Positions 7,054-59,997 of a DNA stretch of 64,000 nucleotides are shown here, piece by piece (the stretch's first letter is position 1; every line of letters starts with the position of its first letter). Where the stretch lies: assembly GCF_014250685.1 (NCBI RefSeq), contig NZ_JACFAJ010000001.1, forward strand, positions 186,001 to 250,000, read 5' to 3'. The stretch is from Cetobacterium sp. 2A. Its GTDB lineage: Bacteria; Fusobacteriota; Fusobacteriia; Fusobacteriales; Fusobacteriaceae. The notes beneath the pieces were generated by a model. That model ran no database searches. It had not been told where the DNA came from and was given only the letters and a program-made list of their open reading frames with translations. A program made the translations under genes and the position numbers.

Positions 7054-7734
7054 ATAGCAATAGGTAAGAATTTGAAATAATCGCTATCTTTTCCCCTGCT
7101 CCACACCGTACGTGATAGTTTCCCATCATACGGCGTTCCATCAATTATTATTTAATTGACTTGGGGCTATCCCTCCACTACTTATTATCATAGTTTCATT
7201 GGTACTGTGCCCCTACTCTCACAAGATTAAAGAAATTTCGTTATATTTATAACTTATATCCACCAACACCCTAACTGGCTTTTTGTTGTATCTTGCTTTC
7301 CACGTTCCATACTTCTTATCATTAAATTTACTTAGGTGGTTACTATGAGCCTGTAAGCTAGATACTGCCTATAACAGTATAACGATGTTCATAATGAAAA
7401 GTTTTACTAATCGTCACTTACACCACAATTTTGTGGCTACGACATTTCTATCGTATAGAATTTTAGACCCGTACACTCGCAACTTCGTCGGCATTTATTA
7501 ATGCATTCTCACCATATAAATTTGACTCCCAATCTATTACTATCTCGACGGTTAAGTTCGCTTTTCCTTTGATTAGGGATAGTTCTCAATTGACTTTACC
7601 AGGCTTTAAACCGTGATATTTAGTTAGAATATCACCGCATACTGGAGATTAGAGAAGACGTTTCAGGTCGTTAATCCATCATTCCATCTTTCAGAAGTAT
7701 AGTTAATAGCTTTATACTATATTACGTGTCACAC
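7054..7734 (-). ncRNA. ORF-less group II intron inserted in the aspartoacylase-like gene
   Basis: On the minus strand it begins GTGTGACACG, matching the GUGYG 5' end rule, and ends GCTAT (AY rule). Domain V is plain at about 7137-7103: ACGCCGTA pairs with TACGGTGT, a 2-nt CG bulge follows, and GATGG/CTATC closes a GAAA tetraloop. Domain VI follows, with AGCGA/TTGCT pairing and a candidate branch-point A eight bases from the 3' end. TTTCAT (complement of 7394-7399) can pair with the last six exon-1 bases ATGAAA as EBS1/IBS1. No maturase ORF is present; domain IV appears reduced to a short CAATTA/TAATTG stem. Splicing would restore a 358-residue protein and probably needs a maturase encoded elsewhere. 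Confidence 0.9.
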
Positions 7735-8566
7735 TTTCATATTCTTTAATTTTTTCATTGGAAAGATTATTTGAATAAATTAGATTATTTAAAACTCCAG
7801 TAGTTGCTCTAGCAACAATATCTTTTTGTTGTGTTTCAGAAGTTCCAAGTTCAAAAGTAATTGCAGGAATGTTTGTTAATACATATGATGTTTCAACACT
7901 TCCCTTTTCACCTTCATCATCTTTTATAATATCGGCTCCAGTTAACATGGCCATTTGTTTTATTATAGGGTTTCTAAAATCTGCATATACAAATAATGGA
8001 AATTGATTTCCTTTTCCACCTGTATGTAGATCGATTACTCTATCAGCATTTTTTGATAATAAATTTTTCCAAATAAGAGTTGAATATTTTTGGTCAGAAT
8101 TGGTATTTTTTTCTGAATCCATCTGTCTATTTAAATCAGAAGTTGTTTCACTCCCACCGCTAAATTTAAATCCTCTAGTATTGTTTAAAAGGCCAGAAGT
8201 ATTCATTCCATGAACAATTGTAACTGTTCCTTTAACATTTTCTGGAGTAAGTTTTTCTTTTACTTTGTAGCTAGTTAAAATAGGATTTAATTCATTTCCA
8301 TGTACTCCAGAGTTTATTAAAAATTTGTCTCCAGATTCTTTTCCTTTTATAATAGTTACTGGAATATACCAAGGATTACCTAAACTATTTTCGACACCTT
8401 GGAAATAAAATTCATAAATATTTCCTGCTTCTAAATCAGAAACATCTAAATTTGTTATGATGTTTTTCCCTAGAAATTTGTCTCCGGTATACTCAGTTTT
8501 TCCAAATGAAACCATAGATAAAGCGAGTGAAGCACTACTAATTAATAAAAATTTTGAAACTGTCAT
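7735..8566 (-). CDS. Secreted aspartoacylase/succinylglutamate desuccinylase-like protein, exon 1
   Basis: A signal peptide spans about residues 1-22. The zinc carboxypeptidase (M14) fold motifs follow in order: SGVHGNELNP with His89 and Glu92, DLNRQMD near 144-150, VIDLHTGGKG with His181, and TFELGTSET with Glu239. The family removes acyl or amide groups from small amino-acid derivatives; being exported, this one may act on periplasmic amides or peptides. Unspliced reading would run into the intron and stop at 7712 (284 residues, tail VTRNIV). Spliced, the protein has 358 residues. A leader peptide and terminator precede the gene. Confidence 0.85.
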
Positions 8567-40334: not shown

Positions 40335-40350
40335 TATCGTAAACATATAT

Positions 40351-40513
40351 ATTTTTAATGGTTTGCATTAGCGATTAAAAGGGAAGTTGGGTTTGAACCC
40401 CACACGGTCCCGCCACTGTAAAGATGATGAAAACGAAAATACCACTGTATTAATGAAGTATGGGAAGGTTCGTGAGTAAAAAGATTCTGAGTCAGGAGAC
40501 CTGCCATTAAAAA
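40351..40513 (+). ncRNA. Cobalamin (B12) riboswitch aptamer
   Basis: The conserved core is plain: AAAAGGGAAGTTGGGT, then CGGTCCCGCCACTGTA (the B12 box region), and GAGTCAGGAGACCTGCC near the 3' end. TTTTTAATGG at the start pairs with CCATTAAAAA at the end to close P1. It binds adenosyl- or methylcobalamin and shuts off expression. It should control the whole cbiMNQO...cbiJ operon by feedback. Confidence 0.96.
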
Positions 40514-40577
40514 TTTATACATCCTGCGGGGACGGGAGGTATAGGGCGCGAGCTTTTTTGCCTTTAGACTTCCTCCA
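40514..40577 (+). promoter_or_regulatory. Riboswitch expression platform
   Basis: Between aptamer and cbiM lies a GC-rich island: CTGCGGGGACGGGAGG, then GGGCGCGAGCTTTTTTGCC, ending in CCTCC. GGAGG and CCTCC can pair around AGGGC/GCCT, and the GGGGACGGG stretch could kiss the aptamer loop CCCGCC. Whether it acts on termination or translation is not clear. Confidence 0.55.
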
Positions 40578-56818: not shown

Positions 56819-57406
56819 TTAAATTTTATTTAATTCGTCTGGAGTATTTATATTTAATAAAAGTTGTTCTCCATCAAAAGGAATATTTTTTAAAGAAACT
56901 TCTTTAATTTTTAAATTTTTAATAACTTCAATAAGTTTATATTCTTTATCCTCGATACAACTTTTTAATTTATCTAGACAACTTTTGCCATATATTCCAA
57001 ATAGTGGATTTATATATCCTCTTTCACATCTTACAACTAGAACATCGTAATCAGGAGTATGAAAACTTAAAATATAATTAATAAAATTTTTTGTGATATT
57101 TGGAGAATCACAAGTTGTCACAAAGATATATTCATTAGAGGAATTTAAGATTCCATTATAAAGACCACCAATTGGACCAATTTTTTCATATATATCTCTG
57201 ACTATTTTTACATTTTTATCCTTAAAATTAATTTGATGAAAACTTTGAATACTATTTGCTGCTATGATTATTTCTTGAAAATCTTCTAACTCATCTATTA
57301 TTTTTTCTAAAAAATTTCGGTTGTCATATTTTAAAAGGTACTTATCTTGATAATTCATTCTACTACTCATACCACCAGTTAAAATCAATGCTGAAATTTC
57401 ATTCAT
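56819..57406 (-). CDS. mobA: MobA-like molybdenum cofactor guanylyltransferase
   Basis: 195 residues. The nucleotidyltransferase start ALILTGGMSSRMNYQDKYLL has the GGxSxRMxxxK loop; later VRDIYEKIGPIGGLYNGILN and FVTTCDSPNITKNFINYIL (the metal-binding CDxP) and LLNINTPDELNKI at the end. It attaches GMP to the molybdopterin cofactor. Use fits the AOR/MoaA genes nearby, although AOR-type enzymes themselves use unmodified pterin. Confidence 0.85.
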   Translation of the reverse strand: MNEISALILTGGMSSRMNYQDKYLLKYDNRNFLEKIIDELEDFQEIIIAANSIQSFHQINFKDKNVKIVRDIYEKIGPIGGLYNGILNSSNEYIFVTTCDSPNITKNFINYILSFHTPDYDVLVVRCERGYINPLFGIYGKSCLDKLKSCIEDKEYKLIEVIKNLKIKEVSLKNIPFDGEQLLLNINTPDELNKI

Positions 57407-57480
57407 AGGCTCCTCCTGAATTAATTTTATTTATATTATATACCTAAATTTTTTAATTTTATTTTTTTTATATATAAAAG

Positions 57481-57509
57481 TTGACATAGAAATATTTATA
57501 TTGTAAAAT
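57481..57509 (+). promoter_or_regulatory. Promoter of the c-di-GMP riboswitch transcript
   Basis: A near-consensus sigma-70 site: TTGACA, 17-base spacer, TAAAAT. Confidence 0.85.
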
Positions 57510-57524
57510 TCTATAAACAGAGAT

Positions 57525-57612
57525 AATGATAATAGCAAAACTAGAGAAATCTAGTGACGCAAAACTATAGGGTCTTAACTATTTATAGAAAGACAGCCAG
57601 CTGCCAAAATTT
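57525..57612 (+). ncRNA. c-di-GMP riboswitch (GEMM-I type)
   Basis: The conserved pattern is present: AGCAAAAC, then a 5-bp stem CTAGA-GAAA-TCTAG with a GNRA tetraloop, then GTGACGCAAAACTATAGGGT, a second stem, and GACAGCCAGCTGCC at the 3' end. GACGCAAA(A)C and the GCCAGCTGCC receptor match GEMM-I. It is followed by an AAATTTCA/TGAAATTT hairpin and a terminator, and lies 120-210 bases upstream of two small secreted-protein genes. Confidence 0.88.
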
Positions 57613-57645
57613 CAACTAAGTATAGGGTGAAATTTAAATTAAAGC

Positions 57646-57676
57646 AGCTATGACATGGTCATAGCTTTATTTTTTT
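57646..57676 (+). terminator. Expression-platform terminator of the c-di-GMP riboswitch
   Basis: AGCTATGAC-ATG-GTCATAGCT, a 9-bp perfect stem with a 3-nt loop, then TTATTTTTTT. It lies between the aptamer and the first gene, so ligand binding can decide termination. Confidence 0.85.
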
Positions 57677-57738
57677 AAATCCATAACTTAGTATCAAAAT
57701 TTATCAAAATCTCTCATCAAATAAAAAGGGTGAGAAAT

Positions 57739-58056
57739 ATGAAAAAAATAATGATGTTATTAATAGGAATGACAATAGGAATTACAAACATTTATGCAAA
57801 ATCGAACGCAACTGTAAATATGTCAGCTTATGTTTTAGACTCTGCTACTGTTTCAACAGTAGAGAATAAAAATAATAAACTTTCTTTAAATTTAAATGAA
57901 CTTAGAGATCAATTTGGACAAGTTGAAAGAACTATGACAACCTCTAATAATCTAAAAATAAAAAAAGAAAATAACACATTATTTGTTCTAGACACAAATA
58001 AAAATGGAAAGGAGATAAATGACGATGTTGTCATTTTAACTGTTATAAATTCATGA
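57739..58056 (+). CDS. Secreted small protein, pilin-like candidate (c-di-GMP controlled)
   Basis: 105 residues from ATG 57739, after AGGGTGAG (an in-frame GTG at 57730 is part of that site). A signal peptide (KKIMMLLIGMTIGITNIYA) ends near residue 20. The mature part begins KSNATVNMSAYVLDSATVST and is small, Asn/Thr-rich and without cysteines, the size of a fimbrial subunit or beta-domain adhesin. No family was recognised with confidence. It shares ATGA with the next gene, whose product looks like a pilus chaperone domain, which supports a fimbrial role. Confidence 0.7.
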   Translation: MKKIMMLLIGMTIGITNIYAKSNATVNMSAYVLDSATVSTVENKNNKLSLNLNELRDQFGQVERTMTTSNNLKIKKENNTLFVLDTNKNGKEINDDVVILTVINS

Positions 58057-58454
58057 AAATATCTAAGCTATATGTTATGTTAGGAATGCTAATTATATTT
58101 AATACAGGATTTGGTTCTGTTTTTAGAACAACGGTTACTCCCGGAAGAATCTTTGTTTCTTCAGATGGTGGAAATGAAAGTATTGAAATTGAAAATATAT
58201 CAGATGAGTTATTAAAGTTATCTATAAATATATCAGATGAAAATGTAAAATATATAAAAATTTATCCCAGTGAATTTGAAATTAAACCTAAATCAAAAAG
58301 AGTTGTTAGACTAAAAGTTTTACCAGAATTTTTTTTAGATGAAAAAACAGAAAAAATATTATATATAACTGAAGTTTCACCTTTAATTATAATAAACAAA
58401 AGAAAAATAATGCCAAGACATGGCGTAACTATAAAAAAAACCACTTTTAAATAA
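58053..58454 (+). CDS. PapD-like pilus-chaperone-type periplasmic protein
   Basis: 133 residues with a signal peptide at about 1-21 (KISKLYVMLGMLIIFNTGFG). The mature part reads like the N-terminal Ig-like domain of pilus chaperones: VTPGRIFVSSDGGNESIEIE, then YPSEFEIKPKSKRVVRLKVL. It ends after that domain and lacks a clear second Ig domain, so it may be a single-domain chaperone or a degenerate one. It is translationally coupled (ATGA) to the pilin-like gene and ends at a bidirectional terminator. Confidence 0.65.
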   Translation: MKISKLYVMLGMLIIFNTGFGSVFRTTVTPGRIFVSSDGGNESIEIENISDELLKLSINISDENVKYIKIYPSEFEIKPKSKRVVRLKVLPEFFLDEKTEKILYITEVSPLIIINKRKIMPRHGVTIKKTTFK

Positions 58455-58468
58455 AAAGTGGTTTTTTT
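58433..58468. terminator. Bidirectional terminator, chaperone-like gene / abgT
   Basis: CCACTTTT / AAAAGTGG with flanking A-run and T-run between convergent genes; it overlaps the end of the upstream gene. Confidence 0.85.
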
Positions 58469-58479
58469 ATTGCAAATTT

Positions 58480-59997
58480 TTAGATATATAAAGGTGTTCC
58501 AGGACCTAGTGGAATACCAAAGTATACCCAAACTATAGCCATAAGTGACCACATAAGAAGAAGTGCTATAGTATATGGCATCATGACAGAAATAACGGTT
58601 CCCATTCCATAATCTTCATCATATTCCTGAGCTAAACCAAGAATAATTGGCATATATGGAAACAGAGGCGATATAACATTTGTGGTGGAGTCTCCTATTC
58701 TGTATAACATCTGAGTTAGAGCAGGATTATAACCTAACATATAAAACATGGGAATGAAAATTGGAGCCAAAAGAGCCCATTTTGCGGATCCACTTCCAAT
58801 AAATAAATTAACAATTGAAGATAAAATTATAAACATCAAGAATAAAGGGATTCCTTTTAAATTCATATTTTTTAAAAAGTCAGCTCCATTGACAGCTAAA
58901 ATAAATCCTAAGTTGCTCCAGTTAAAGTATGCTATAAATTGTCCAATCATAAAAACAAGAACGATATAAGAAGACATATCCTTCATAGCTGAGGTTATGT
59001 GTCTTGGGATATCTCCTGCTGTTTTAATTTGTCCAACACGTTTACCGTATGTAATTCCAGCTATTAAGAATAAAAATAGAAGTAGAGGGATAATAGAGTT
59101 TAAGAGTGGAGAGTTTAGTAAAGAACCAGTTTTAGGATTTCTTAAAAAACTATTTTTTGGAACTACAATTGCAACTATAAAAAGTATATAAATTAAAGAG
59201 TAAATACCTGCCCATCTTAGTGCAGATTTTTCAACTGGTGAAATAGCTTCGTTTTTAAAAGTTTTATTTCCAGTATATTTTCCAAGTCTTGGTTCAATAA
59301 TTTTTTCTGTAACGATAGTCCCAACAATTGCTAATAAAAATGTTGAAACAGCCATAAAATACCAGTTAGAAACGACAGATACAGTAACATTAGGATTAAC
59401 TATTTTCATTGCTTCGGTAGAAATTCCAGCAAGGAGAGCATCTGTACCAGCCACAATTAAGTTAGCACTAAATCCAGCAGTTGTTGCAGCATATCCTACG
59501 GCTATTCCTGCTAAAGGATGTTTACCAAGTGAGAGAAATATAATTGCTGAAATTACAGGAACAATAACTATTGCGGCATCAGAAGCAATATTTCCACAAA
59601 TACCAATTAACATAATCATAAAGGTAATTATTTTGGGAGAGCTATTTAATATTGAGTTTCTCATAAATGCAGAGACAAGACCAACGTGTTCTGCTAACCC
59701 AATTCCAAGAGTCATTACTAAAACGAGACCTAGAGGTGAAAAACCAGTAAAGTTTTTAATCATACTTTGAAGCATAAAATTTATTCCGTCACTGGACAAT
59801 AAACTTTTAACTTTAACAATTTCATTTTTAACTGGGTCAGTTACATTTACATCAAAAATATTTGCAATCGTAGAAATAATAATAATTCCAACAGCAAATA
59901 TAAAAAAAAGAATAAATGGATGTGGAATTTTATTTCCAGTTTTTTCAATCCAATCCAAAAAACTATTGCCGTTCTTAACTTTAATATTTTCAGCCAT
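58480..59997 (-). CDS. AbgT-family transporter
   Basis: 505 residues, about 12-13 helices. GFSPLGLVLVMTLGIGLAEH, PLAGIAVGYAATTAGFSANL and the C-terminal NLFIGSGSAKWALLAPIFIP are family signatures. E. coli AbgT imports p-aminobenzoyl-glutamate; others export sulfonamides. It is divergent from an M20 amidohydrolase gene, and the E. coli abg cluster pairs AbgT with M20 hydrolases that split p-aminobenzoyl-glutamate, so folate-breakdown uptake is the likely role. Confidence 0.92.
   Translation of the reverse strand: MAENIKVKNGNSFLDWIEKTGNKIPHPFILFFIFAVGIIIISTIANIFDVNVTDPVKNEIVKVKSLLSSDGINFMLQSMIKNFTGFSPLGLVLVMTLGIGLAEHVGLVSAFMRNSILNSSPKIITFMIMLIGICGNIASDAAIVIVPVISAIIFLSLGKHPLAGIAVGYAATTAGFSANLIVAGTDALLAGISTEAMKIVNPNVTVSVVSNWYFMAVSTFLLAIVGTIVTEKIIEPRLGKYTGNKTFKNEAISPVEKSALRWAGIYSLIYILFIVAIVVPKNSFLRNPKTGSLLNSPLLNSIIPLLLFLFLIAGITYGKRVGQIKTAGDIPRHITSAMKDMSSYIVLVFMIGQFIAYFNWSNLGFILAVNGADFLKNMNLKGIPLFLMFIILSSIVNLFIGSGSAKWALLAPIFIPMFYMLGYNPALTQMLYRIGDSTTNVISPLFPYMPIILGLAQEYDEDYGMGTVISVMMPYTIALLLMWSLMAIVWVYFGIPLGPGTPLYI

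Follow-up and report, generated by a model that had tools for sequence, protein, structure and literature searches.

A riboswitch-controlled mini-pilin-like and chaperone-like gene pair in Cetobacterium sp. 2A, a probable satellite of a chaperone-usher pilus

Behind a c-di-GMP-I riboswitch of Cetobacterium sp. 2A lie two small genes for secreted proteins, which we interpret, with a probability of about two in three, as a detached satellite of a chaperone-usher pilus under c-di-GMP control. In a sister species the same pair, with an aptamer of its own, sits right behind an usher, and it is therefore that we read the pair in the window as a satellite. The window is the whole stretch of 64,000 nucleotides that was analysed; it lies on contig C11 of a 2.59 Mb genome in 14 contigs (G000). 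G000 has the pair on one contig and the usher on another, and we therefore infer their functional tie from the sister species (G001).

Layout of the gene pair and likeness of its proteins

The two genes are predicted to form a single transcription unit, with the following features.

57481-57509 (+), sigma-70-type promoter, TTGACA, 17 nt, TAAAAT, matching the consensus at 11 of 12 bases
57524-57608 (+), c-di-GMP-I (GEMM-I) aptamer, RF01051, 73.5 bits, E 1.6e-12
57646-57674 (+), intrinsic terminator of the leader (hairpin 57646-57666) with a 9-bp stem, a 3-nt loop and a T-rich tail, -10.8 kcal/mol
57739-58056 (+), gene 1 (P0001), 105 aa, secreted mini-pilin-like protein, G001 orthologue 41% identical
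58053-58454 (+), gene 2 (P0002), 133 aa, secreted relative of the first domain of periplasmic pilus chaperones, G001 orthologue 38% identical
58434-58468 (+), intrinsic terminator closing the unit, 15-bp hairpin and T run, -15.3 kcal/mol

The original prediction had described a near-consensus promoter, a GEMM-I aptamer, a terminator and two coupled small genes, and all of these were recovered where it had placed them. The promoter was the only match of its grade (at least 11 of 12 bases, plus strand) in 57000-58800, compared with a mean of 0.11 in 200 shuffles, and the aptamer score stands against a gathering score of 35 bits. Four terminator-like sites were found around the pair where 0.5 were expected. 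Gene 1 and gene 2 overlap by 4 bases, and both proteins carry N-terminal signal peptides as judged by eye. The pair is flanked by a MobA-like NTP transferase gene directed away from it and by an AbgT-type transporter gene directed towards it, and the closing terminator is common to the pair and this convergent transporter gene.

Two further elements were seen elsewhere in the window. A cobalamin riboswitch at 40342-40522 (+, 112.5 bits) precedes a long run of genes on the same strand, up to 55025, that by eye resembles cobalamin biosynthesis. Group II intron signatures at 7054-7707 (-) matched RF02004 (119.4 bits) and RF00029 (62.3 bits), next to an open reading frame at 7712-8566 (-).

The second gene had been described as having the N-terminal fold of a pilus chaperone, and this was borne out. 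Its match to Pfam PapD_N, at 14.7 bits, falls under the curated cut-off of 23 bits, but the relationship is well supported by profile comparisons. Aligned with the chaperones of the pilus operons described below, gene 2 and its orthologue gave an hhalign probability of 97.8 (E 9.3e-13) over residues 3-92, which correspond to the first domain. When the signal peptides were removed, gene 2 still matched the chaperones at E 3.9e-5 and its orthologue at E 6.3e-4, compared with 0.17 for the best of 400 shuffles. The second Ig-like chaperone domain is absent from the gene 2 alignments, the protein stopping after the first domain, and the G-E/Q-Y motif of chaperones is missing. On its sequence, gene 2 reads as a real but single-domain chaperone relative, and as such it could serve to probe how much of its two-domain structure a chaperone needs. 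Queries of the genome contigs with gene 2, as a single protein or as a two-row alignment, returned no relatives, and none were found in viral contigs. A PDB sequence search with gene 2 alone gave no useful match, and the NCBIfam search names none of the proteins.

The first gene had been called pilin-like, a description that holds for its N-terminal strand and lapses for the remainder of the protein. The full-length protein matched the pilin profile, an iterative build in which signal peptides were kept, at 2.1e-4; without its signal peptide the match fell to E 0.41, no better than shuffles. The first 22 mature residues resemble pilin N termini to a degree equalled by only 2 of 1000 shuffles (1 of 1000 for the orthologue). 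For the remaining part of gene 1, 52 of 200 shuffles were as good (5 of 200 for the orthologue), which is not convincing, and a pilin body with the D-F-G and C-terminal G-x-Y-x-G motifs is absent from the alignments. Since the match is confined to the first 22 mature residues, we term gene 1 mini-pilin-like rather than a pilin; its N-terminal segment is presumed to be a donor strand. Single-sequence structure models of both proteins reached a mean pLDDT of 40 and were set aside.

Neither protein reaches the length of its relatives, and gene 1 has only the first strand left, as might be expected of a decayed remnant in which the genes are relics of a truncated pilin and a truncated chaperone. 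However, both frames are open, identity to the G001 orthologues extends over the whole length, and the same gene overlap and an aptamer are found in both species. We regard decay as highly unlikely.

The main pilus operon and the arrangement in a sister species

RF01051 has two matches in the window genome, one in the window leader and one on contig C9. Upstream of the C9 aptamer are an HD-GYP gene and a PAS-GGDEF gene; downstream are genes for a 246-aa chaperone, five pilin-like proteins, a 299-aa protein and an 824-aa usher-like protein. The C9 stretch starts with a gene for a replication-type protein that resembles proteins of Cetobacterium plasmids, together with what we take to be ParA/ParB-like genes. 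Within the same family, Fusobacteriaceae, genome G065 contains a stretch identical to Cetobacterium somerae plasmid NZ_CP092522.1.

Pfam Usher (PF00577) has no match in the window genome, and of the 19 relatives of the 824-aa protein from which our usher profile was built one matches it (5.5e-13). The profile itself matched PapC chains at 2.1e-5 to 9e-5; its best overall match was SdrD (4.8e-7), caused by an SdrD_B-like domain. From these comparisons the 824-aa protein is assigned as a divergent usher relative. The operon chaperone profile matched CsuC at 3.2e-4, and PapD_N was matched by 16 of 25 operon chaperones. A search for the operon chaperone in phages gave no match, and a search for the usher in plasmids returned one Polaromonas record, with a match to the C-terminal domain only.

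The original prediction had noted that there was no usher gene at the locus and had proposed a search elsewhere in the genome. The usher profile is indeed without a match on C11, and the wider search found usher relatives on C9 and C13. The cluster on C13 (L181 1942-11021) is a second one of usher type, comprising two chaperones, a pilin-like gene, a 958-aa usher relative and an 820-aa pilin-like protein, and has no c-di-GMP-I aptamer.

In G001 the order is usher operon, 36 nt, aptamer, gene 1 orthologue and gene 2 orthologue, and the pilus operon itself is also preceded by an aptamer. The gene 1-gene 2 pair was found in these two genomes only.

These arrangements bear on the earlier proposal of a minimal two-gene fimbrial unit. 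In its strictest form the pair would be a free-standing surface unit, in which gene 1 is exported or surface-bound alone, gene 2 is its private folding partner and no usher takes part. The absence of an usher from the window contig and the isolation of the G000 pair between unrelated genes are what such a unit would look like. Against the proposal stand the complete chaperone-pilin-usher operon behind the second riboswitch of the same genome and the sister species, where the pair directly follows the usher operon; aptamer-pilin-chaperone cassettes also lie behind ushers in other genera. A free-standing unit is thus unlikely, and we favour the satellite of a chaperone-usher pilus. In such a satellite, canonical GGDEF enzymes would make the c-di-GMP, and the ligand would determine how much is made of a short pilin-like subunit and of the single-domain, chaperone-like protein that partners it. 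The two may work with an usher whose gene lies elsewhere, for instance in the role of a minor, an anchoring or a terminating subunit.

Switch geometry and ligand

The two leaders of the genome resemble two known riboswitches. The window leader shares its Rfam family and its geometry, in which terminator and aptamer can coexist, with Cd1 of Clostridioides difficile, and the main operon leader shares both with pilM of Geobacter metallireducens, where the terminator excludes the aptamer. An excluding terminator makes an ON switch, as in pilM, and a coexisting one an OFF switch, as in Cd1 (PMC9262584). The window leader differs from both systems in having an A at the selectivity position and, on top of the known elements, a putative P0 helix and a hairpin over the Shine-Dalgarno region. 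The additional elements of this leader are as follows.

57599-57604 (+), AGCUGC in the aptamer 3' strand, putative antiterminator strand, complementary to 57644-57649
57644-57649 (+), GCAGCU, putative antiterminator partner, overlapping the terminator 5' arm by 4 bases
57520-57532 (+), putative long-range closing helix (P0), 5' strand, lying in part inside the aptamer match
57701-57713 (+), 3' strand of the putative P0 helix, pairing with 57520-57532
57712-57735 (+), hairpin over the gene 1 Shine-Dalgarno region, UCUCAUC with GGUGAGA, 0 of 500 shuffles as stable

Across the order to which Cetobacterium belongs, the terminator 5' arm overlaps the aptamer 3' strand in 93 of 144 leaders; 27 have a separate terminator and in 24 none was detected. 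Two bases near the aptamer 3' end divide along the same line, CA occurring in 91 overlapping and 4 separate cases and CC in 0 and 22, counts which include related sequences many times over. The main operon leader of G000 has an overlapping terminator (ON geometry) and the window leader a separate one at +37 (OFF geometry).

The AGCUGC/GCAGCU complement was equalled by 2.7% of shuffles and is the best among the 27 cases with a separate terminator. An antiterminator as a general rule for such aptamers was rejected: two other cases were near 5-6% and most were at chance (n = 27), and no common antiterminator partner emerged from folding 26 of the 27 leaders, one with its terminator 55 nt away being omitted. 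In the lack of a general rule, the OFF reading of the window switch therefore consists of the geometry plus one weak complement.

The duplex energy of the putative P0 helix was reached by 0.6% of shuffles in the window, and by 0.0% for the same pairing in G001. The G001 pair leader also has an analogous Shine-Dalgarno hairpin (0.4% of shuffles) alongside this closing helix, and no terminator was detected in it. Because the P0 helix and the Shine-Dalgarno hairpin share two or three bases in the window, the ligand might free the ribosome site; this overlap, if it matters, suggests ON rather than OFF. On balance we lean slightly towards an OFF switch for the window pair.

The ligand may accordingly differ in its effect on the two transcripts, repressing the pair while activating the main pilus operon, as the terminator geometry suggests. 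With opposite-sign switches on one pilus, high c-di-GMP would turn the main operon ON through its overlapping terminator and the satellite pair OFF through its coexisting one, and the mini-pilin-like protein and the single-domain chaperone could cap or block the pilus as c-di-GMP falls. We offer this as a tentative scheme that is, as a whole, rather unlikely.

The difference in geometry between the two leaders is also consistent with a regulatory or inhibitory role of the pair in the periplasm, through binding of pilins or of the chaperone, with the single-domain protein capping the groove of a subunit that it cannot deliver to the usher. The archaic chaperone CsuC anchors its subunit through residues of both domains (PMC4654587), and gene 2 has the first domain only. 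Against this, a small chaperone might still pass on a small subunit. A regulatory role seems to us possible but doubtful, and the preferred reading remains a satellite that contributes to the pilus.

The original prediction had named c-di-GMP as the signal. c-di-GMP is the likely ligand as far as the aptamer and the enzymes encoded in the genome indicate, with the qualification that the selectivity position holds an A. This is Rfam position 11, equivalent to Cd1 G11 and Vc2 G20, and the orthologous aptamer of G001 has G there; among the 144 aptamers the base is A in 14, G in 125, C in 4 and U in 1. PMC9262584 describes the position as a factor in the choice between cyclic dinucleotides, rather than as a hard filter for c-di-GMP-I, and reports no large effect of G11A in Cd1. 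The A could mean that 3',3'-cGAMP is the ligand in place of c-di-GMP, or that both dinucleotides are sensed. Yet besides the G in the orthologue and the mild effect of G11A, the enzymes speak against cGAMP. Hypr cGAMP enzymes have the GGDEF-domain Asp replaced by Ser (PMC6456294). The window genome has 6 GGDEF, 4 EAL and 3 HD-GYP domains; none of the six GGDEF domains has the Ser signature, all keeping Asp, and no match to a SMODS-type nucleotidyltransferase was found in this genome. Sensing of cGAMP is thus quite improbable.

Related aptamers in the order and known systems

RF01051 gave 144 matches in 37 of the 96 genomes of the order, all of which were used, including one below the gathering score. 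A two-row usher alignment (A1) had members in 41 of the 96 genomes; 83 of its 90 rows were used, the 7 weakest (E 3e-5 and above, 6 genomes) being omitted. With these 83 rows, an usher lies within 6 kb downstream on the same strand for 29 of the 144 aptamers, where 0.33 were expected, and for none on the opposite strand.

The first operon behind the aptamer contained an usher in 23 cases and a chaperone without an usher in 13, and began with a pilin-like gene in 27; the other classes were HD-GYP (11), GGDEF (8), other (50) and no gene within 350 nt (12). These counts inherit the labels of the pilin profile, which may over-count pilins, and for half of the aptamers the analysed locus ends some 5 kb downstream. 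Pilus-type genes (usher, chaperone or pilin) lie behind 63 of the 144 aptamers, in 26 genomes. In one genus (L056, L057), two or three aptamer-pilin-chaperone cassettes follow the usher operon in series; the window pair represents a reduced form of such a cassette.

Other targets were also seen. CC-type aptamers with a separate terminator stand directly before HD-GYP genes in seven loci (L060, L066, L068, L077, L080, L101 and L114), which suggests that the signal feeds back on its own breakdown. Aptamers precede small proteins of 96-98 aa in eight loci (L098, L107, L124, L129, L141, L142, L150 and L156); those of L098 and L156 resemble winged-helix regulators by eye, and in L098 a 1246-aa secreted-looking open reading frame follows. 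Tandem c-di-GMP-I aptamers about 90 nt apart occur in L088 (7477-7552 and 7645-7720, -), L133 and L171, with very long open reading frames downstream (2168 and 1540 aa in two of them).

Cyclic-dinucleotide riboswitches control type IV pili, flagella and single adhesins, and the older c-di-GMP-I targets, such as those of Cd1 and pilM, are flagellar or type IV pilus genes. In contrast, the targets here are chaperone-usher genes. The pilus resembles the archaic CsuC-CsuD pathway of Acinetobacter baumannii in its CsuC profile match, its several small pilins and its one longer protein before the usher. It differs in its usher, which in 18 of 19 members has diverged beyond the reach of PF00577, and in that most of the ushers carry SdrD_B and carboxypeptidase-regulatory-like domains. 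For the distribution of the pathway PMC4654587 names Proteobacteria, Cyanobacteria and Deinococcus-Thermus, and PMC9452303 gives 'a wide range of phyla'; neither text mentions Fusobacteria.

The aptamer belongs to a known class and the pilus system, though divergent, to a known pathway. Within the openly licensed literature we found no paper on a riboswitch before chaperone-usher genes and none on chaperone-usher pili in Fusobacteriota. As far as our searches showed, the link between aptamer and pilus, the reduced chaperone and the use of two geometries on one pilus system are new to that literature. If the reading is correct, a whole family of gut and sediment bacteria runs its pili by one RNA class, 29 aptamers stand directly in the path of usher operons, and two switch geometries can be told apart by a sequence rule at the aptamer 3' end.

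Four genomes of the Cetobacterium somerae genus (L063, L120, L139, L160) have a locus of clearly similar plan: a gene for a single-domain chaperone relative (143-147 aa) comes first, then a c-di-GMP-I aptamer, then a gene for a pilin-like protein of roughly 105 aa. An usher precedes the aptamer by 4.2-5.5 kb in three of the four. The gene order is reversed with respect to the window pair, and comparison of the small proteins with those of the pair gave hhalign probabilities of 16 and 4, which do not establish homology. In L139 (1418-1645, -) the mini-pilin-like protein behind the aptamer stops early, at 75 aa, whereas its three relatives are 105-106 aa long.
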